Virus record (IMG/VR): IMGVR_UViG_3300034418_005428
Coordinates: 1-20,234 of that record
Strand: one strand, 5' to 3'
Length of the DNA stretch: 20,234 nucleotides
DNA from: a virus
The notes beneath the pieces were generated by a model. It made no database searches, was not told where the DNA came from, and worked only from the letters and a program-made list of their open reading frames with translations. A program made the position numbers and the translations under genes. Numbering within the stretch: the first letter of the stretch is position 1; each line of letters starts with the position of its first letter. Of this stretch, positions 3,196 to 19,261 are shown piece by piece.

Positions 3196-4519
3196 CTTGT
3201 CTACCTATTCTATCAATAATGGACTGTGTGCCATCCTCTTGTTGTGGCTGTTCTGAGTCTAATTCCTCAAGCATATTGTCTATTTCCTCATCTAATAAAT
3301 CAGGATTCTTTTTTCTCAAATAGCTTTTTCTTGTTTCTAACTCATTAGCGAATGCCCAAGTGTAATACTGTATTTCCTCAGATTGACTCATTGGTACTTC
3401 TCTTTCAGCAAAGTCTACACTAAACTGGTCACCAAGATTTATACCACCTGATACTTCACATATTCTACTTGCAATTTTAAATTGTTCTTGTTCAAAAGGT
3501 CTATAGATTTGTTCTACATCACTTCTCAGTGCATCCATTAAGTCTATTTCTGACATTTTCTTAGACAATCCACTTTCCTGTGCATTGTTAGTCCAATTGA
3601 TACGAACATTGTTGGCTTGTGCTATAGAATCCACCATATATCGTGTAGATTCAATCATTCCATTAATATTGGAGTTAGGACTCGCATAATTAAAGTTCGC
3701 ACCCTCAGGCAGCACTAAAGCCTTATCTTGCCCCATTGCTATTCTTTGTTCTGTGTCAAGTCCTGTAAATACTGGCTGACCCAATGCGAATCTACCATGC
3801 AATGCTAATTCAGTTAAAAGAATATTCACACTTCTCATACCATTGACTAAGTCTGTAGCACCTTCTCTAAAATAATCTCTTGTAAATGCATGTCTATGTG
3901 CAATGTTAAATGGAATAATATCTCCATAAGGATTTCTATCACCATCTACAATAGAAGTGATTTTACCCTTAGATGATATCATGAAGTGCTTTCCTTCCAT
4001 ATCGTCAGTATCTTTTGACCAAAACATATATTGTGCATCCTCACTTCTTGCTTGAAGTTGTGATTCTGCTTGATACATAACAGCAAATGGCTCATCCTCA
4101 TTTGGCTTAAAGAATGGAATAAAAAAGTGTATTGGTCTATACTTCAGTTTTTGCTCATTGTCATCCCAATGTGTGTACAATGCCTCAGTTCCAAGCAGGT
4201 ATACCAATTGCTCATATTGTTTCATAAAACTATCAAAGTCACCCAAGACTTCATTATACTTGTCATTGAGTCTTACTGGTGATTGTTGATAGACTAAAGT
4301 TCTACGACTTATAATGTTTCTCACCAAATTAATATACATTGGTGGAATCTGTGATAAACTTTCACTGTTAAAGTATTGCTTTAAGTCTTGCTCTAAATTA
4401 ATTCCTTCGTAATAATCAAGAAGTCGTTCTCTTTCTTCCATTTGATTATCGTATTGATTCTGTATGGTATCCATAAGTAAGTCATACAGCATCTTTTCTG
4501 TTAAATTATAAATTATCAT
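3188..4519 (-). CDS. Portal protein
   Basis: The 443-residue protein has the length and layout of a siphovirus portal, which forms the dodecameric DNA channel at the capsid vertex and docks the terminase. Visible support: a helical N-terminus with RERLLDYYEGIN near residue 30, the segment NLVRNIISRRTLVYQQSPVR near 64-84, and a stem or wing region with a DRNPYGDIIPFNIAHRH-type loop typical of portals of this class. The C-terminal 50 residues are acidic (SEQPQQEDGTQ). It lies between the large terminase plus a small membrane protein and the Mu F-like minor head gene. The call rests on length, context and these segments. Confidence 0.85.
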   Translation of the reverse strand: MIIYNLTEKMLYDLLMDTIQNQYDNQMEERERLLDYYEGINLEQDLKQYFNSESLSQIPPMYINLVRNIISRRTLVYQQSPVRLNDKYNEVLGDFDSFMKQYEQLVYLLGTEALYTHWDDNEQKLKYRPIHFFIPFFKPNEDEPFAVMYQAESQLQARSEDAQYMFWSKDTDDMEGKHFMISSKGKITSIVDGDRNPYGDIIPFNIAHRHAFTRDYFREGATDLVNGMRSVNILLTELALHGRFALGQPVFTGLDTEQRIAMGQDKALVLPEGANFNYASPNSNINGMIESTRYMVDSIAQANNVRINWTNNAQESGLSKKMSEIDLMDALRSDVEQIYRPFEQEQFKIASRICEVSGGINLGDQFSVDFAEREVPMSQSEEIQYYTWAFANELETRKSYLRKKNPDLLDEEIDNMLEELDSEQPQQEDGTQSIIDRIGRQVG

Positions 4520-4701
4520 CCCTCATACCTATTTTTTGTCATTTGTGATAATGTTTGTTCTTCTAATATGTAATCTGCATATTGTTTAAACAACTTCTCA
4601 TCTTTTTTCTCTTGTTTGTCTACTAAGTGCTGACCATACAGAAAAGCAGTAACCAAAGATATCAAAAAACCACATGAAAGACCTAAAGCAAAGGTTACCA
4701 T
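4516..4701 (-). CDS. Small single-pass membrane protein
   Basis: The 61-residue protein has one hydrophobic segment (residues 2-24, VTFALGLSCGFLISLVTAFL), then a charged Lys/Glu-rich cytoplasmic-type tail. It overlaps both neighbours, the large terminase by 7 bases and the portal by 4 (ATGA), so it is certainly in the same operon. AAGGA lies 11 bases before the ATG. The function is unknown. Small membrane proteins between terminase and portal occur in other phages. A holin role is possible but not supported by any endolysin nearby. Confidence 0.7.
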   Translation of the reverse strand: MVTFALGLSCGFLISLVTAFLYGQHLVDKQEKKDEKLFKQYADYILEEQTLSQMTKNRYEG

Positions 4702-5888
4702 TGTATCGCAGTTCCTTTTCCTTTAAATCCATAACGATATTCAATAGGATACATTAAACCATCCAAAAAGTGTGATAAGGTTTCTGTTTTAAGAATGGCA
4801 CCATTATCCATAGTACACAATTCTAAGTCTCTAATCAAGTTTTTACATTTTGGATTTACATAAAGTCTAATGATACCTGCTGCACTTTCTAACATGTTAT
4901 TTAGTGCATTCAATCTATCTTTTTGTGTTGGATTAGCCTTTTTACTAATCACAGTGAAACCTGCCTCTTGTAGTATTCTATGGTCAGATTTCGTACTATT
5001 ACTTGTTCTTGCTTTACCTGCTGGGTCAGGATAAACTGGAATATTAGGTGCAATCTGTGACATTTTCTGTGCGAGTTCAAATGTGTTGGAGTTTTGCATA
5101 CCTATTTCATCAATAGCATACACAGTACCATCTGTGAACTCACATAATAGAATAGCAGTTAGATAACTGGCTACTCCAAAGTCTACACCCCAAAATAATC
5201 TTGTGCTTGTTTCCATGTTTTTTAAATGTTTTGTTCTGTCAAAATTATATGCTGCACGATTAGCAGATGATTCAAATGATGCCAAATATTCTTGTCTAAA
5301 TGTTTGTGCATCTAAATTCTTTTTAGCACTCTCAATCTCATCCTCACTAATAAAGCCACCATCTAAGGTAGTAAACTGCCAAGACTTATAATCACTTTCA
5401 TTTTGACCTTTTACCCACAAATCATAGAAATGGTTTTGTGTACCAGTTGGAGTACCTACAAACAATGCTTGACCTTTAGTCTCAGATAACATAGGCTGTA
5501 TAATTTCGCCCCATACATTTGCTTTCATAAATGCATATTCATCTAATACGACTTTATTCAAACTAACTCCACGAATGCTGTCTTCATTGTTTGCACCTTT
5601 GAGTTCAACTTTTGCATTATTTTTGAATGTAATTGATAACTCACTTTCATTAATCCTAACATCCCTACCTGACAATGCTTTTTTAAGAATACCCCATGCA
5701 ACCATTTTTGCTTGAGTATATGAAGGAAAAACAATCCATCTTCTTTCATAAGGCTGTATTTCTGTTGAAAGTAGCCACATGACTGCGAAATAAGTCTTAC
5801 CCCATCTACGACCACAGCATAATATCTTGTACCTATGTGAGTCATGGAATAGGATATTGTATCTTGTTTCGTCAATTTTCCACTTCAT
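4695..5888 (-). CDS. terL: Terminase large subunit
   Basis: This 397-residue protein is the DNA-packaging motor and genome-cutting nuclease. The ATPase domain shows Walker A GRRWGKT at residues 26-32, Walker B VVLDEYA at 113-119 and the coupling motif FVGTPTG at 143-149. The RNase H-like nuclease domain starts at FWGVDFG (catalytic Asp at about 236) and ends with SHFLDGLMYPIEY near residue 380, which carries the last acidic residue. ATG at 5886-5888 is preferred over the TTG one codon upstream. The frame overlaps the small subunit gene by 17 bases, indicating coupled translation. It is short but complete. Confidence 0.95.
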   Translation of the reverse strand: MKWKIDETRYNILFHDSHRYKILCCGRRWGKTYFAVMWLLSTEIQPYERRWIVFPSYTQAKMVAWGILKKALSGRDVRINESELSITFKNNAKVELKGANNEDSIRGVSLNKVVLDEYAFMKANVWGEIIQPMLSETKGQALFVGTPTGTQNHFYDLWVKGQNESDYKSWQFTTLDGGFISEDEIESAKKNLDAQTFRQEYLASFESSANRAAYNFDRTKHLKNMETSTRLFWGVDFGVASYLTAILLCEFTDGTVYAIDEIGMQNSNTFELAQKMSQIAPNIPVYPDPAGKARTSNSTKSDHRILQEAGFTVISKKANPTQKDRLNALNNMLESAAGIIRLYVNPKCKNLIRDLELCTMDNGAILKTETLSHFLDGLMYPIEYRYGFKGKGTAIQW

Positions 5889-6222
5889 CAAAATTAAAGA
5901 CCTTTATTGGTTCATCAGTTTCCGATATTCCAATAGTTTGTACTGGTCTACCCTCTGTTCTATCAGCGATAAACTGCACTGCCCATTGTTTTCCTTGAAC
6001 TGCATACATCATAGTAGTCCTTAAGATTGCTTCCATCATTGTCATTTCTTCTGTATCTACCTGATTAAAGAGTTTATTTACTCTTTCTTTTAACTCTGGT
6101 GGAACATCTTCTGCACCAATATTTTTCAACATGGTGGCAATAGATTGACTTCCCTTTGGTCTACCATGACCTTTGGAGAATGAGTTGCCCTCTTTGAATC
6201 TCCCTTTGTTGTCTCTTTCCAT
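5872..6222 (-). CDS. terS: Terminase small subunit (DUF5681-like N-terminus)
   Basis: The 116-residue protein starts MERDNKGRFKEGNSFSKGHG and has RPKGSQS at about 26-32, the GRFKxGN...GRPKGS signature of the DUF5681 family, which is often found as the gene before a phage large terminase. The rest is helical (residues 40-95), suitable for oligomerisation and DNA recognition, with an acidic tail (ETDEPIKVFNFDEVEN). It would recognise the packaging site and hand DNA to the large subunit. Position directly upstream of terL with a 17-base overlap supports this. No clear Shine-Dalgarno site precedes the ATG. Confidence 0.78.
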   Translation of the reverse strand: MERDNKGRFKEGNSFSKGHGRPKGSQSIATMLKNIGAEDVPPELKERVNKLFNQVDTEEMTMMEAILRTTMMYAVQGKQWAVQFIADRTEGRPVQTIGISETDEPIKVFNFDEVEN

Positions 6223-6230
6223 AAATTTTA

Positions 6231-6254
6231 CCGATTGTTACCGTTTTTAATCGG
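6231..6254. repeat. Inverted repeat just upstream of the small terminase gene
   Basis: CCGATT (6231-6236) and AATCGG (6249-6254) form a 6-bp inverted repeat around a 12-base centre. On the minus strand the same stretch carries CGGTAA twice (11 bases apart). It lies in the 24-base gap between the HNH gene and the small terminase start, overlapping the HNH stop codon. It could be a hairpin or a terminase recognition site. Function is inference. Confidence 0.4.
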
Positions 6255-6726
6255 CAAACAAGTCTACTTGAACAACTTCATGTTCTTCAACAATTTTTTT
6301 AGGTATATAAACTCCAGCTTCAATATCTAATAACACTTGGTAATTGTTTTCTTCCACTGTTTCATACGATACCAATTCAAACCTATTATCCAAACATTCC
6401 TTTTTAAAAAACATCCAATGTCTACCTCTGTAGTTCTTAAACATCTTTTTGTCTTTTATAGCCTTTTTATAAAACTTCCACACTTTTTCGTTCTTGTATC
6501 TACAATGAATCATCATGTGGCATATATAACAAAGACCAAATTGTCCAATGTGTTTGCCAAAAGGGGATGAATAATTCTCACTGTGCCATTCTAAAGCACC
6601 TTGTGTTTGTGTACATATATCGCACTTAGTTGGATATTGAGGTTTAAAACCTTTTGCTTGTTGATTTCTAAACCATTTGAGAGCAGCAAGTCTTTGCTTA
6701 CCACTAAATCCATTATAACTATTCAT
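6247..6726 (-). CDS. HNH-like zinc protein upstream of terminase
   Basis: The 159-residue protein carries CDIC (C35, C38), then EWHSENYSSPFG (H48), then LCYICHMMIHCR (C66, C69, H70, H74). The paired cysteines and His-rich core are those of a zinc-stabilised HNH-like (beta-beta-alpha-metal) fold known in many phage small proteins. HNH proteins next to terminase genes help cut packaging ends in several cos phages, so this role is plausible here. The C-terminal part (residues 100-159) is Glu-rich and of unknown function. Whether it is an active nuclease is uncertain, because the classical HNH asparagine is not obvious. Confidence 0.75.
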   Translation of the reverse strand: MNSYNGFSGKQRLAALKWFRNQQAKGFKPQYPTKCDICTQTQGALEWHSENYSSPFGKHIGQFGLCYICHMMIHCRYKNEKVWKFYKKAIKDKKMFKNYRGRHWMFFKKECLDNRFELVSYETVEENNYQVLLDIEAGVYIPKKIVEEHEVVQVDLFAD

Positions 6727-6750: not shown

Positions 6751-7197
6751 CTATAGAACAAGGTCTGCATGCCAAACACCAGTACGAACTTCTTTATTTA
6801 TGGTAAATCCTTCTTTTTCGTAATAGTGTGGATGCAAGGTTAAGACCTCTATAACATCATATCCTTTGTCTTTAGCTATATATTTTCTCATTTCAGTAAG
6901 AAAATGACCAAATCCAAAACCTCTAAATTCTTTATCTATAAAATCGCCTTTAATGCGACATTTATTCTTTGCAAGATATAATCCACAACATCCAATAGAA
7001 TCGTGTTTTTTCCAACCAATTCTCATGATATTAAACCACATGGTATTGTTGGTATCACTTATACTTACTCTTTCTTTAGCAGCACGACTCTTATATCCCT
7101 TTATATCATCATAGGAACATTCTCTAATGATAATTTCATCCTTAATAAATGTATAAGGATTTTCTTTGCCATTTTCTATGATATAATCAGGATTCAT
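6751..7197 (-). CDS. GNAT-fold acyltransferase
   Basis: The 148-residue protein has a recognisable GNAT core: strand RIKGDFIDKE (81-90), acetyl-CoA-binding motif A with RGFGFG at residues 92-97, a helix (HFLTEMRKYIAKDKGY), strand VIEVLT and the motif B region HYYEKEGF at 124-131. GNAT enzymes move an acyl group from acyl-CoA to an amine; phage Mu Mom, a DNA-base modifier, is a distant member. The start is ATG at 7195-7197, preferred over an upstream ATG at 7264-7266 that would give a 23-residue extension and an 80-base overlap. It overlaps the IbrB-like ParB gene by 11 bases, so it is the last member of that cassette. The substrate is unknown. Confidence 0.78.
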   Translation of the reverse strand: MNPDYIIENGKENPYTFIKDEIIIRECSYDDIKGYKSRAAKERVSISDTNNTMWFNIMRIGWKKHDSIGCCGLYLAKNKCRIKGDFIDKEFRGFGFGHFLTEMRKYIAKDKGYDVIEVLTLHPHYYEKEGFTINKEVRTGVWHADLVL

Positions 7198-7699
7198 TTT
7201 TATACTGTGGATACCATGCTTTGCTGTATTTATAACTCTTAATATTTTTTGCTTTGAACACACCATCTTGATACAGCAAATCTATTTCTTTTGGTGTAGC
7301 CCCTAATTCTTTGGCAAGTTCTTTTGTTTCCCACTTATGCTTATCAACCAACTCTTTGACCATTTCTGACATACGAACTGCCACATGGCTGCCTTTTGCT
7401 CTATTCATTCTTACAGTCAATATCATGGCTTGGTCTCTTGGTACATCAAAAATGACACATGGTACTTTACCATCATATTTTTTTCTTAATTTTTTACTTT
7501 CACGACTCAACATAGTTCTATGAAATCCATCTATGATGACTAAATCTTTAGATATAATCACAGGCTGTACCCAACCTATTGAATCTATGTTATTTTCTAA
7601 ACTTCTTAACTCAGGATTAAACACGACATTTGGATTATAGTCATTTGCCTCCAATGAGTCAGCATCTATCCACTGAATGTTATTTATTGGGTCGTTCAT
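7187..7699 (-). CDS. ParB/Srx-fold protein, IbrB-like
   Basis: The 170-residue protein has a ParB N-terminal domain: YNPN (21-24), GWVQPVII (42-49), the phosphate-binding-type DGFHR (57-61) and RMNRAKGSH (97-105). The last motif (IRHNRARGxH in relatives) marks the IbrB-type subfamily that is paired with PAPS-reductase-like proteins in E. coli IbrA/IbrB and in phages. A helix-turn-helix-like part follows (WETKELAKELGATPKEIDLL, 123-142). Its start overlaps the PAPS-reductase stop by 4 bases (ATGA), with AGAGG upstream. IbrB is known only as an activator of host genes; its biochemistry is unknown. ParB-fold proteins can bind and hydrolyse CTP or act as nucleases. Confidence 0.82.
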   Translation of the reverse strand: MNDPINNIQWIDADSLEANDYNPNVVFNPELRSLENNIDSIGWVQPVIISKDLVIIDGFHRTMLSRESKKLRKKYDGKVPCVIFDVPRDQAMILTVRMNRAKGSHVAVRMSEMVKELVDKHKWETKELAKELGATPKEIDLLYQDGVFKAKNIKSYKYSKAWYPQYKNES

Positions 7700-8757
7700 C
7701 TTGCCTCTTTACTTAATGGTAATAATTCTCTTTTATATGCCCCTGAAATAAAATATTTCAAGATATGTCCAACAGGATATGCCTCATTATCGTTTCTATT
7801 GGCAACAACTGCTTTTTTGAACATTTTATAAGCTTCATGCTTTTGTTTAGGGTCAGTAATAAAGTCTTTGATATAACTCAATACTGACTGCATGTTTTTT
7901 CCATATTTTTTTGTTAGTCCTGACATATCGTATTCACGATAGTATCTTTCTTGCACCAACATCTCAGGAAATATATCTATGACCTGAGAATATAAAAGTG
8001 GGTCTAAAGTTCTTAGTTTGTGAAACTTTTTGGCAGCCTCTTGATGTATTGGTGTCGCAACTCTCAAAGAGTCTCCATTCCATACTTGCCAATCATAAAT
8101 AGGACAATAATCAATATTGTTATCGTAAAAATATCTAAATATGTCATTTTCCTCCCAATCGTATACTGGTTTCACCAATTTTATATTAGGCATATTTATT
8201 TTTGTTCCACAAATGTAGTTTTCATTGATTTTATTCATGCAAGATGCATATCTAATCAAACTTTCACTTGCCCTTATACCATTGATATAAGCAATTTTAC
8301 CTGAATAATATTCTGCAACTAAATGGTCCATGGTATCCTGTGAGAACACCCTGTCATCGTCAACAGTTATCGCATAATCAGGTATTGGTCTTATATGCTT
8401 TCTATCTTTATCCCATTGGATATATGTATGAGTTTGACCTAAAATATATTTTTGACTGTAAAGTGGCACACAGAAATACTTCATGTCTACCCAGTCTTTT
8501 TGTCTATACTCATTGACAAAATCTACAATGGCATTAGATATTAATTCTTCATCTCTAAATACCACATTGACTTTTTCTATCCCCCTGCTGTTTGCCACTT
8601 CTTTTACAAGATGCAGTGCAGCAAGACTATCTTTTCCACCACTGAACATTACCACAATGGTATCAAAGGTGTCAAATACATGGTTAATTCTTTTTATAGC
8701 CTCATCATAGACATTGGTTTCTATGTAGACTCTTTCTCTTTTTCTAAACTTCGCCAT
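7696..8757 (-). CDS. PAPS-reductase-family ATP pyrophosphatase, IbrA/DndC-like
   Basis: The 353-residue protein has the PP-loop SGGKDS at residues 39-44 (MFSGGKDSLAAL), the family signature of adenylating ATP pyrophosphatases. It then shows GIRASES (160-166) and PVYDWEENDIFRYF (197-210), both typical of PAPS-reductase-like proteins. Close relatives are IbrA and, more distantly, DndC, which helps put sulfur into the DNA backbone. Enzymes of this class activate a substrate with ATP. The ATG at 8755-8757 is preferred to the TTG one codon upstream. It overlaps the first ParB gene by 14 bases and the second by 4. No DndA, DndD or DndE homologue is in the window, so phosphorothioation is not proven. 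Confidence 0.85.
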   Translation of the reverse strand: MAKFRKRERVYIETNVYDEAIKRINHVFDTFDTIVVMFSGGKDSLAALHLVKEVANSRGIEKVNVVFRDEELISNAIVDFVNEYRQKDWVDMKYFCVPLYSQKYILGQTHTYIQWDKDRKHIRPIPDYAITVDDDRVFSQDTMDHLVAEYYSGKIAYINGIRASESLIRYASCMNKINENYICGTKINMPNIKLVKPVYDWEENDIFRYFYDNNIDYCPIYDWQVWNGDSLRVATPIHQEAAKKFHKLRTLDPLLYSQVIDIFPEMLVQERYYREYDMSGLTKKYGKNMQSVLSYIKDFITDPKQKHEAYKMFKKAVVANRNDNEAYPVGHILKYFISGAYKRELLPLSKEAR

Positions 8758-9358
8758 CAATCATTTCTGACACATGCTTGTCAATACGACTTGAATGTGT
8801 TTCCAAATGTGGATATTTTTCCTTTAATAATTGCAGGAAATTATGCCAATTAGACTGTTGCTGTTCATTGTCAAATATAATGTTATATTGAATAATGGCA
8901 TTTCCATACTTTTCATTCTCAGGAACATATTTATCATCAGATAAGTCAAACTCCTTTGAAACTGTATCAAAGAATAATTCATTCTCTTTAAATCCCCAAT
9001 TTAACAATTCGTCAATGTCAAACTCATTGGCTAATTTATCCCAATCCCATGTACCACTATTTTTGTTGAGTCTAATATTTAATTCTCTTTCTTGTGCTTT
9101 AGAAAGATTTAATTCAACACATGGTACTTCTGCGATATTCAACATTTTAGCAATTTTCAGTCTTTGGTGTCCACCTACGACATAATTTTTTCTTTTGGGA
9201 TTTACATTGATGATTATTGGGTCAATAAAACCAAATGTTTCAATAGATTTTTTCAAATCCTCATGTTGTTTTTCAGACAACTGTCTTGGATTATATTCTG
9301 CCTCAACGAGTTCGTTGATTTTCTTTTGAACTATTTCTATGTTTCTGACTGCAGCCAA
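8744..9358 (-). CDS. ParB-like protein, first of the modification cassette
   Basis: The 204-residue protein has a complete ParB N-terminal domain: EYNPRQLS (21-28), GFIDPIIIN (43-51), GGHQRLK (62-68), VPCVELNL (78-85) and LNKNSGTWDWDKLA (97-110). This last motif and the following DELLNWGFKENEL are usual in phage ParB proteins that carry a C-terminal adenine methyltransferase; here that domain is absent and a short tail follows. The start is TTG at 9356-9358, with AAAGGG 9 bases upstream and no ATG available. It is the first gene of the leftward late operon. ParB/Srx domains may bind CTP or DNA or cleave DNA. Confidence 0.82.
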   Translation of the reverse strand: MAAVRNIEIVQKKINELVEAEYNPRQLSEKQHEDLKKSIETFGFIDPIIINVNPKRKNYVVGGHQRLKIAKMLNIAEVPCVELNLSKAQERELNIRLNKNSGTWDWDKLANEFDIDELLNWGFKENELFFDTVSKEFDLSDDKYVPENEKYGNAIIQYNIIFDNEQQQSNWHNFLQLLKEKYPHLETHSSRIDKHVSEMIDGEV

Positions 9359-16091: not shown

Positions 16092-16859
16092 CTATTGAAT
16101 TTGTTGTCTTAAAGTAAGTTGTGTTGCGAATCTGCTATCTGCGACTTCTGTAAATACCAAAGGCTTATCTAAACGAACCCAATGAAATTCACTGCCATCA
16201 TAGTATAAGAATTTTTTGGACTCTCCTTTGAGTGCATTCTGCATTGTAATCAAATCTGTCTTAAAAGTAGAACTAATATTTTGAAAACTGATAGTAATTA
16301 TTTCTTGACCTGGATTCACATTCAATGCATACTCTACTCCACCTAATGACCTTTGTACTTGGTTTTCATAATCAATGGAAGTTTGAACATTGACATCAGG
16401 CTCTATCTCAAATGATAGTTTTTTACCAATTAAAACTTCTGATACATTTGATACTGCATTTAAAAATTTAACATAGAATTTATCACTGGTAGTTTCAGTT
16501 AAATCTCCAACTTTCCACCCTGCCTCAGTTGCCACTGCTATTGTTTCTAAATTCGTGATACTTCCACTTGTACCACTTAATATCCTAATAATAGAACCAC
16601 TACCACCACTTGCACCTGTAAAATATGCTGCAGCAACATCTGCTGTCGCACTACTCCCAACTGCATATTGAATTGTATCACCACTATTTATTGCTGAAAA
16701 AGTTGTTCCAATATTTTGGTCTGCTGACCTTTCATGATTTGTGATAACATCTGATTCTGCAAAAGTTTGTGTTGGCGAAGTTCCTGATACTGTACCTTCA
16801 TTTACATCGTTATCACTTCTATACATATTAATTGAATCATAAATAAAATATGATGCCAT
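16092..16859 (-). CDS. Tail/baseplate structural protein
   Basis: The 255-residue protein is strand-rich, with many Ser, Thr and Gly residues (residues 20-130), then a globular C-terminal part: QVQRSLGGVEYALNVNPGQE followed by KSKFLYYDG-type strands and a final VFTEVADSRFATQLTLRQQ. This ending resembles tail assembly proteins of lambdoid and related siphoviruses. GGGAGG lies 7 bases before its ATG. It follows the 799-residue tail gene with a 2-base gap and is the last gene before the terminator. A structural role is inferred from composition and position. Confidence 0.65.
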   Translation of the reverse strand: MASYFIYDSINMYRSDNDVNEGTVSGTSPTQTFAESDVITNHERSADQNIGTTFSAINSGDTIQYAVGSSATADVAAAYFTGASGGSGSIIRILSGTSGSITNLETIAVATEAGWKVGDLTETTSDKFYVKFLNAVSNVSEVLIGKKLSFEIEPDVNVQTSIDYENQVQRSLGGVEYALNVNPGQEIITISFQNISSTFKTDLITMQNALKGESKKFLYYDGSEFHWVRLDKPLVFTEVADSRFATQLTLRQQIQ

Positions 16860-16861
16860 TA

Positions 16862-19261
16862 CTAAACCTCCCTACATTGAATTTGGACATTGCCAATTCT
16901 TCTTTTTAAATCTGTTATTATAAATTTTTTACCTGACCATGCATCCTTAAATAAACGAGTCGGCATGGCTACAAAGCTATCAAAGGTATCTGATATTTCA
17001 TCAAATGGACTACCTAATTCACTGAATGTTATTTCACCAAAATCTACAAAGTCACCTATTTGCAGCATTCCATATTTCTCAGGATTTACCAATGTCGCAC
17101 TAACAGTTGTTCTATATTGACCAAACAATGACTTTCTAAAGTTAAGCCAACTGGTATTCCTACTTGTGCCACTGATAGCAATAGCAGCTTTCAAGAAGTC
17201 TAAGTTTATTTCTTGTTTTTGGTGCAATGTACTATCAAAGATTACTGAATGCTGTGAGCCACTTTCTGTAGATACATATGTTTCATTATTTGTATATTTA
17301 TTTTCTGCAGGGTGTTCATTGAAGTTTACCACTACATTTGTTTCTAAATCTTGAACTGGTGTGATTCCCAACTCATAATTACTAATATCATTTTGAGATA
17401 AATCCACTGTAGCAGTTGGACTGTTTGGTATCGTAAAGTACCTAAATTCAGTGACTCCTGTAATCGCAGTTTGTTGTGCCTGTGGACTATATTCAAAAAA
17501 GAAACATCCTTCATACTGAAGTTTTTTCATTACATCTTCTAACATCATAGGCTCATACAGACTTAATCGTGTTTGCCAATGTGTTGTGCTGTTAGTTGTC
17601 GTTGAGTCTCTTAATTCTGCTACACCTTTATATCCATTGTTTAAATTATCTGCATCAGTAGCTAAAGAATCAATTCCTACAAAATCTTTTATCAATTGTC
17701 TATGTATGGAAACAGGATTGTTCAAATCATCATTGACTCCTGTATGACCATTAAAGTCACTTGTTTTTATATCTTGACCAATATATAGTTTTTCAATGTT
17801 TGCATTAGATTCTTGTTTTGCTATAGGCTCATCAGTTGTTTCTAATGTCGTTGTATATGTTCCTAAAATACTGTGTATTTTTAAATCACATGTAAAGTCA
17901 TCAAATTGACCCTGCGAAGGTTCATCCGAAGTTAATTCTAAAGACAGTCTCAATCTATCTTGTATTTGTCCATCTTTAAAAATATCATCAAATTGAGTTT
18001 GATTTAATATGAATGACTTTGTAGTTGTAGAAACATCTGAAGTTTGTATTGTACTCGCACCACCTTCAAAGAATATTGCATTTGTTTGGTCAGCCATATT
18101 AGAGTCACTGGATAAGTCATCTGAGTGCATGTAAAGTTTGACACCTGAAAATCCATTATTTCCTGTGAATGTTATTGAGTACCTAACACTAATTGTGAAT
18201 CCTGTTAATTTATGCATTGGTTTCGCAAACTTTAAAAATATTGATGACCCTGCTACATCCTCATTAGTACTATCATCAGCAGGATTCAATCTGTTGGAAA
18301 TCGTAGCAAAACTGGTATTGTTCAATGTACCATCAGAATTTAAGTCTAATATGTTTGCAGGATTTGTGATTGTCGCAGTTTGCAAAAGTGATGAACTATA
18401 CATTGATTGTTCATTACCATTTTCATCTGTAAAATCATTTGGCACCATGTTAAAATCTTTGACTAACTTGCTATTGACTTCAACAGTTGTACCACCATCA
18501 GCATCAGCAGGATTCAACAGTTTTGAAGTTGTAGTGGATGAAAAACCTGACTTTGTCAATGGTATAAATCTTTGAACATTTTTATCATAAAACTCTAAAT
18601 TACTAATGCTGGAAGTATTGTTTGCAATTTTGTTTGGTAATAAAAACACCAAATTATCATTATCATTTCTTATATATGGAACTTCATAAAGATTAAATAT
18701 ATCTTTTGAGTAAACAGAACTTGATGATTGACCAAAATCACCCAACACATATGGTATTTGTACACCTGCAAAATCTCCAGTTGTCTTTGCCTGTGGTAAT
18801 GATACATTTTGGAATGGTCTATTTGATATAACATTTATGATAACTGTATTGTTGCTGTATCCAAAACTTGATATTTTACCACTAAATATTTGAAGTGCAT
18901 TCGCAGCAGTATTATCATTATCAATTTGACTCAATACATTCACTTGTCCATTGATATATTCATTGCCTAATAATTCCAATAAGGTAGTACCATCAATATC
19001 AATGTTAGCAATATTCAAAGTGATAGCACCAGTTTTTGTTGTAAAACTTTTTAGGTCTAAAGAATAATTCACCTGTGGTTTATTTAAAATTGCAGGATAA
19101 TAATCAACATTGTTGTATTGTGTTTCTGCGAAACTAAATGCTAAGTCAGGTGTATTGGTTGTCAATATACTGGAGTTAGTATTTTTAAATATTTGGACTA
19201 ACCAATTCTCAGTAATTGTTGCCCCCAACTTGCTTTCATAATTGCTATTTGTAAAACTCAT
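16862..19261 (-). CDS. Large tail tip/hub-type structural protein
   Basis: The 799-residue protein is the largest in the window. Its N-terminal part (ITENWLVQIFKNTNSSILTT, then DLKSFTTKTGAITLNIANID and FSGKISSFGYSNNTVIINVI) is beta-rich, like proteins that form a tail hub or tip. A Ser/Thr/Asn-rich middle (300-480) could carry a lectin-like insert. The C-terminal part (SLYEPMMLEDVMKKLQYEGC, then LVNPEKYGMLQIGDFVDFGE) is again hub-like. No endopeptidase motif was seen. It overlaps the preceding gene by 4 bases (ATGA). The tail-tip role is inferred from size, composition and context. Confidence 0.62.
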   Translation of the reverse strand: MSFTNSNYESKLGATITENWLVQIFKNTNSSILTTNTPDLAFSFAETQYNNVDYYPAILNKPQVNYSLDLKSFTTKTGAITLNIANIDIDGTTLLELLGNEYINGQVNVLSQIDNDNTAANALQIFSGKISSFGYSNNTVIINVISNRPFQNVSLPQAKTTGDFAGVQIPYVLGDFGQSSSSVYSKDIFNLYEVPYIRNDNDNLVFLLPNKIANNTSSISNLEFYDKNVQRFIPLTKSGFSSTTTSKLLNPADADGGTTVEVNSKLVKDFNMVPNDFTDENGNEQSMYSSSLLQTATITNPANILDLNSDGTLNNTSFATISNRLNPADDSTNEDVAGSSIFLKFAKPMHKLTGFTISVRYSITFTGNNGFSGVKLYMHSDDLSSDSNMADQTNAIFFEGGASTIQTSDVSTTTKSFILNQTQFDDIFKDGQIQDRLRLSLELTSDEPSQGQFDDFTCDLKIHSILGTYTTTLETTDEPIAKQESNANIEKLYIGQDIKTSDFNGHTGVNDDLNNPVSIHRQLIKDFVGIDSLATDADNLNNGYKGVAELRDSTTTNSTTHWQTRLSLYEPMMLEDVMKKLQYEGCFFFEYSPQAQQTAITGVTEFRYFTIPNSPTATVDLSQNDISNYELGITPVQDLETNVVVNFNEHPAENKYTNNETYVSTESGSQHSVIFDSTLHQKQEINLDFLKAAIAISGTSRNTSWLNFRKSLFGQYRTTVSATLVNPEKYGMLQIGDFVDFGEITFSELGSPFDEISDTFDSFVAMPTRLFKDAWSGKKFIITDLKRRIGNVQIQCREV

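Follow-up and report, generated by a model that had tools for sequence, protein, structure and literature searches.

Gene content of the locus

The window, i.e., the whole stretch of DNA that was analyzed, is an IMG/VR virus contig of 20,234 bases with a GC content of 33%. It carries a module of five genes in the order ParB1, IbrA-like PP-loop protein, IbrB-like ParB2, GNAT acyltransferase, and HNH-like protein, followed by the terminase genes; all five module genes and the downstream late genes are located on the minus strand. The first four genes had been presented in the preliminary description as a cassette that heads the late operon, with overlaps of 14, 4, and 11 bases. The open reading frames of this block are all present on the minus strand, and the overlaps hold given the ATG starts. 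The block does not end at the GNAT gene: the gene for the HNH-like protein, located 24 bases downstream, is a part of it. The position at the head of the late operon is plausible, as a 217-base gap lies upstream and late genes follow on the same strand, but a scan of the window revealed no promoter above chance. The genes following the HNH gene on the same strand encode a probable small terminase subunit (5872-6222; DUF5681, 7.6e-8), the large terminase subunit (4695-5891; Terminase_6N, 1.7e-16; phrog_2, 3.7e-44), whose start is overlapped by the former gene, and then the portal-position, head-protease-like, and capsid proteins. Both terminase genes are context and lie outside the module.

ParB1 (8744-9358; 204 aa) starts from a TTG codon with AAAGGGA upstream and matches ParB_N in Pfam (2.8e-9, 37.4 bits, cut-off 26.3) and phrog_620 in PHROGs (1.8e-34). 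The alignment of its homologs revealed a conserved C-terminal domain, IIQYNIIFDNEQQQ..W..FL..LK..YP..ET...RI, and a retained GGHQR box. ParB2 (7187-7699; 170 aa) matches phrog_2159 (8.2e-62) and, weakly and under the cut-off, ParB_N (18.1 bits); its IIDGFHR box is retained as DGFHR among the homologs. The two proteins are mutually related (hhalign, 97.9%), and both are related to the CTP-binding ParB/Noc proteins. The annotations of the regions viewed name no ParA next to the module.

The PP-loop protein (7696-8757; 353 aa from ATG 8757, with TTG 8760 as an alternative start) contains the SGGKDS motif and belongs to the PAPS_reduct family (1.2e-13, 51.9 bits, cut-off 22.5) and to phrog_2302 (8e-109). 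The solved folds closest to its predicted structure (pLDDT 89) are FAD synthase, PAPS reductase CysH, and ATP sulfurylase CysD, two of which (FAD synthase and CysD) are adenylylating enzymes; TilS and the tRNA thiolases stand lower in the list. The preliminary description had drawn a parallel with DndC, and insertion of sulfur into the phage DNA, by DndC-like phosphorothioation or otherwise, would be consistent with the shared PAPS_reduct superfamily, with weak matches to the DndC and BrxP profiles, and with a study of a M. abscessus prophage that likens its own PAPS reductase-like protein to DndC (PMC8092301). DndC is recognized by a cysteine dyad and three 4Fe-4S cysteines (PMC10853773). The alignment of the PP-loop homologs contains a single near-invariant cysteine, C218 (28/29), and therefore lacks the dyad, the cluster cysteines, and the conserved C-terminal catalytic cysteine of CysH. 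The scores against DndC (TIGR03183, 18.9 bits, cut-off 290.4) and CysH (TIGR00434, 21.0 bits, cut-off 165.1) are far under the respective thresholds. We consider sulfur insertion highly improbable, and the parallel with DndC is abandoned. The missing DndC and CysH cysteines, the low scores, and the nearest folds argue for a chemistry in which the PP-loop protein would adenylate its target for attack by a non-sulfur nucleophile, with room left for a sulfur donor protein.

The GNAT gene (6751-7197; 148 aa from ATG 7197, or 171 aa for 6751-7266 from ATG 7266) occupies a position that we refer to as the cap slot. Its product scores just under the threshold for Acetyltransf_7 (1.3e-5, 25.9 bits, cut-off 27), and 25 of 31 GNAT homologs match Acetyltransf_1 or _7. 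The structural model (pLDDT 92.5) has an unambiguous standard acetyl-CoA GNAT fold with an RGFGFG loop, and its Foldseek matches are GNATs. The last product of the module (6247-6726; 159 aa) belongs to a family with the pattern CxxC, HxExY, CxxCHxxxH, in which C35, C38, H48, E50, C66, C69, H70, and H74 are invariant among 21 homologs. This pattern, with the Zn cysteines and the H..CH..H arrangement expected of an HNH endonuclease, makes it a candidate nuclease; searches of Pfam and PDB gave no convincing match.

Conservation of the module and exchange of the cap gene

Nearly the same segment is present in two contigs, L002 and L003, and the order ParB1, PP-loop, ParB2, GNAT, HNH is kept in six contigs at 53-70% PP-loop identity. 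This gene order recurs in other virus contigs at 50-79% ParB2/PP-loop identity, far beyond chance. In contig L006 (68% PP-loop identity), the layout is the same, but GNAT is swapped for a class I SAM methyltransferase of 183 aa with a DLCCSTGLLG motif, which sits exactly between ParB2 and HNH. This alternative cap (phrog_11826) is unrelated to GNAT. The methyltransferase alignment contains invariant ARR...E and GR and lacks the (D/N/S)PP(Y/F) motif of DNA amino-methyltransferases; the profile resembles small-molecule methyltransferases.

Salgado and 031MP004, both isolated phages, have the methyltransferase form, as does the prophage prophi79-1; Pipefishvirus Phlyer has the core, i.e., ParB1, PP-loop protein, and ParB2, with GNAT and methyltransferase both missing. 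The Pipefishvirus large terminase subunit was considered as a possible carrier of a fused cap and rejected, its extra length being an intein. The tblastn search with the window GNAT gave no match among isolated phages; thus, the known GNAT-type modules come from contigs of uncultivated viruses and from two bacterial contigs of metagenomic origin (L161 and L164). The slot is occupied by an opposite-strand gene for a 182-aa protein in L210 and by a second ParB1-like gene in L086, which recur too rarely to define a third type of cap.

The co-occurrence of these genes was assessed in a pool of PP-loop-anchored, methyltransferase-anchored, and GTDB-genome loci from IMG/VR, isolated phages, and prophages, using profile HMMs built from seed members and iterated across all loci. 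The census was limited to close PP-loop homologs (E < 1e-110, at least 300 aa), which formed 81 clusters at 90% identity. GNAT is present in 32 clusters and the methyltransferase in 34, neither was recognized in 11, and 4 are undetermined. No cluster has both caps, compared with 13.4 expected under independence (hypergeometric P of zero, 2e-11); as the clusters are not independent, the tree of PP-loop proteins weighs more than this value. This maximum-likelihood tree, obtained by a quick search with midpoint rooting and containing some long branches, implies at least 14 switches between GNAT and methyltransferase. The switches extend into the clade of the window, in which L004, L005, and L008 have GNAT and L006 has the methyltransferase. 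Among the 55 clusters with complete flanks, both ParBs are present in 54, a cap in 48, and HNH in 46. Some of the 11 clusters without a recognizable cap may hold divergent caps; taken as they are, they indicate that the cap is not always required.

Anchoring the searches on other genes removes the bias of the PP-loop starting point. Core genes are present in 20 of 21 GNAT-anchored loci, and the remaining contig begins inside GNAT. The HNH-anchored scan, for which a narrower set of homologs was used because the broader alignment was too divergent, revealed core genes in 49 of 54 loci, with the other five ending within about 300 bases of HNH. For the methyltransferase, core genes are present in 59 of 62 loci; two of the other three end close to the gene. 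In the third (L098), 2.7 kb lies upstream, and the complete 13.6-kb record contains no PP-loop gene. The methyltransferase query matched 18 of 50,697 annotated phage records, all from Arthrobacter, Bacillus, or M. abscessus phages, and the core adjoins the gene in all 18. Of 150 Nocardia genomes, the PP-loop, methyltransferase, and HNH profiles match an identical set of seven, exactly once each, and in these genomes ParB1, PP-loop, ParB2, methyltransferase, and HNH lie side by side.

HNH proteins beside terminases assist packaging in other phages. The locus could thus be a loose cargo spot, with HNH serving the packaging machinery and GNAT and methyltransferase being unrelated morons that landed at one site; related terminases are found in Vibrio phages, with the matches beginning near the left end of the record. 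Several observations make this explanation very improbable, and the searches with four anchors, which show the opposite of caps and HNH standing beside other genes, largely refute it. With very few exceptions, the methyltransferase accompanies the core, and this holds genome-wide in the 150 Nocardia genomes. The gene order in L054, L064, and L067 is PP-loop, cap, HNH, ParB2, so that HNH and the cap lie between core genes, away from the terminase; this variation implies that they follow the core and not the terminase. In a single metagenomic case (L193), GNAT and HNH are joined in one in-frame reading frame of 260 aa (GNAT 1-125, HNH 123-258).

ParB1, the PP-loop protein, ParB2, one cap, and the HNH-like protein constitute one conserved, repeatedly transferred genetic unit that is present in many phages and prophages unrelated to one another and is often located by the terminase genes. 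The recurrence of the families in other phages and prophages, on which the preliminary description had made its reading depend, is confirmed; the HNH partner and the exchangeable slot had been overlooked there. This slot is the most informative clue to the function of the module. The two caps replace each other, and both keep company with one and the same core and HNH protein; thus, GNAT and methyltransferase, in spite of their different folds and cofactors, most likely both act on the product of the same core. No description of the module was found in the searchable literature, which leaves most subscription papers and preprints outside its scope, and the five-gene unit with an exchangeable cap appears to be undescribed in the literature searched.

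Proposed role of the module

We propose that the module builds and then caps a chemical mark, probably on the phage DNA, and that the HNH-like protein would cut uncapped DNA; in our estimate, this reading has about an even chance of being correct. Of the preliminary description, the view that the combination is a conserved functional unit is upheld, and a composite modification pathway is the best reading overall; the DndC and Mom parallels are not supported. The two ParB/Srx proteins, acting as NTP-dependent DNA-loading or phosphotransfer partners, would bring the PP-loop protein to DNA. The PP-loop protein would then use ATP to adenylate the target position, where a nucleophile, most simply an amine, would be attached; this step is modeled on TilS and GMP synthetase and not on sulfur insertion by DndC. 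The attached group would be acylated by GNAT or, in other phages, methylated by the methyltransferase. Finally, HNH might cut DNA that lacks the finished mark, either of the host or of a rival, or introduce nicks during marking, and the packaged phage DNA would bear the mark.

The simplest proposal for the core intermediate is that it bears an amine: acetyl-CoA- and SAM-dependent enzymes both act on such nucleophiles, which would make the caps interchangeable. A more specific version, in which a ParB-delivered PP-loop enzyme adds an amine or a similar group to a DNA base after replication, acylation or methylation finishes the same intermediate, and HNH polices the result, would be a new type of hypermodification of phage nucleic acid; we regard it as tentative. 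Several features count against a marking role. The methyltransferase has no DPPY motif, HNH has no convincing Pfam model, and both cap profiles look generic, resembling amine, protein, or small-molecule enzymes. In addition to the 11 clusters without a recognizable cap, there are the distant IbrAB pairs of Streptococcus, Flavobacterium, and enteric phages and plasmids, whose name refers to an effect on transcription; those of their loci that were examined lack both cap and HNH.

DNA is favored as the target because of the two ParB domains, the nuclease-like partner, and the position beside the terminase. The same enzymes could instead act on RNA, a host protein, or a small nucleotide, the PP-loop protein adenylating the target, the cap finishing it, and HNH being a toxin, so that the module would serve as a weapon for host takeover or against superinfection. 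Modification of tRNA is the task of three relatives of the PP-loop protein, TilS, NcsA, and TtuA, and the adenylylation carried out by FAD synthase targets a small molecule. The generic character of the caps would fit such targets, 5 of 14 methyltransferases weakly match a tRNA methyltransferase family (phrog_4752), and the GNATs of phage polyvalent proteins have been interpreted as protein modifiers (PMC5512222). The features that favor DNA fit this alternative less well, and we consider it unlikely, albeit the strongest competitor of DNA marking.

According to the proposed DNA-marking pathway, the same core intermediate would be acylated in phages with GNAT, methylated in phages with the methyltransferase, and bare in the capless ones. 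The GNAT form of the window is known from metagenomic contigs alone, and cultured phages cover the other two forms; the availability of methyltransferase-form phages of Bacillus subtilis (031MP002-004) and Arthrobacter (Salgado and Laroye) and of the capless Pipefishvirus Phlyer, a phage of Mycobacterium smegmatis, makes this prediction directly testable by mass spectrometry of nucleosides. If DNA is indeed the target, the chemistry of this anti-restriction or self-marking would be new, and the module would offer novel enzymes that modify DNA.

Comparison with known systems

The similarity of the middle pair to IbrA/IbrB, noted in the preliminary description, was corroborated by comparison with E. 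coli phage PhiR5_2 (hhalign, 99.8% and 5.8e-29 for IbrA; 100% and 4.1e-40 for IbrB). In enteric phages and on plasmids (there as DUF3440), a PP-loop PAPS_reduct protein likewise adjoins a ParB-domain protein, both being homologous to those of the module, whereas no ParB1, cap, or HNH is annotated by the PhiR5_2 pair. Such pairs occur across phages and hundreds of plasmids. IbrA/IbrB is known solely as a transcription co-activator with undefined biochemistry; no biochemical study of it was found in the literature searched, subscription journals and preprints being outside its scope. The module adds three partners to this pair.

By analogy, the core might bind DNA and turn on late phage genes, with the cap tuning its activity. 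Two points agree with such a role: the middle pair is clearly homologous to annotated co-activators of prophage gene expression, and the module is located upstream of the late genes. However, the name co-activator defines no mechanism, and this role leaves the ATP-using PP-loop enzyme, the exchangeable cap, and the obligate HNH partner unexplained; moreover, a DNA mark could alter transcription by itself. Co-activation of this type is improbable in our view.

The trio of ParB, PAPS reductase, and ParB annotated in actinobacteriophages and Bacillus phages is the same core in the methyltransferase form (Salgado, 031MP004, and prophi79-1). There the genes are annotated singly, and we found no paper in which the trio is considered as one entity or GNAT is mentioned as the alternative cap.

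The Mom-type GNAT of jumbo phages is fused to an endonuclease, which has been interpreted as a mark-self/cut-other arrangement (PMC7824862). Here, a phage GNAT is similarly linked, and in L193 fused, to an endonuclease-like domain, and the same logic may apply. The partner is HNH in our module and REase in the fusions, and GNAT depends on the ParB/PP-loop core and is exchangeable with the methyltransferase. The relationship to Mom of phage Mu suggested in the preliminary description did not hold up, as the GNAT has no detectable similarity to this protein (hhalign probability 0.5%, E 0.13).

The combination of a PP-loop enzyme with a ParB-superfamily protein is shared with DndC/DndB phosphorothioation and with BrxP of type 4 BREX, from which the module differs in its cysteine signature and scores, as well as in having cap enzymes and HNH instead. 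Neither a cysteine desulfurase nor DndD/DndE is named in the annotations of those neighborhoods that were examined, a subset of the loci. Finally, in the Dpd pathway of 7-deazaguanine modification, a ParB-like ATPase, DpdB, partners a base-inserting enzyme (PMC12839542), and a finishing enzyme, DpdC, acts afterwards. The module resembles this division of labor and has no TGT/DpdA or DpdC; the PP-loop enzyme would be the base modifier here.

Unmatched reading frames of the window

Two large open reading frames (255 and 799 aa) lie on the minus strand at positions 16092-19261 of the window, for which no Pfam match above the cut-off and no PHROGs match were found.

Fusion and additional genes within module loci

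In a single metagenomic virus contig, L193, the cap GNAT and the HNH-like protein are naturally fused in frame (5629-6411). Additional genes interrupt the module in two other loci: (i) in L200, a cysteine-rich gene of 257 aa and of unknown family (3584-4357) is located between the genes for ParB1 and the PP-loop protein, and (ii) in L065, two genes (4762-5786) separate ParB2 from the methyltransferase. By eye, one of the latter resembles a MazG-type pyrophosphatase and the other a PhyH-type dioxygenase, whose product could be an additional tailoring enzyme.

Layouts lacking the cap

In the more distant PP-loop/ParB loci (L083-L095), a second, smaller PAPS_reduct protein replaces the cap, and HNH is absent from most of them; this layout is possibly a further variant of the module. 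In Mycobacteriophage Phlyer, the terminase gene (L012:2714-5236), located immediately downstream of ParB2, contains an intein (PF14890, 3e-12). The Amycolatopsis plasmid pAmyja1 (L221) encodes ParB-PP-loop-ParB-HNH without the cap, and also carries phage terminase and portal genes.
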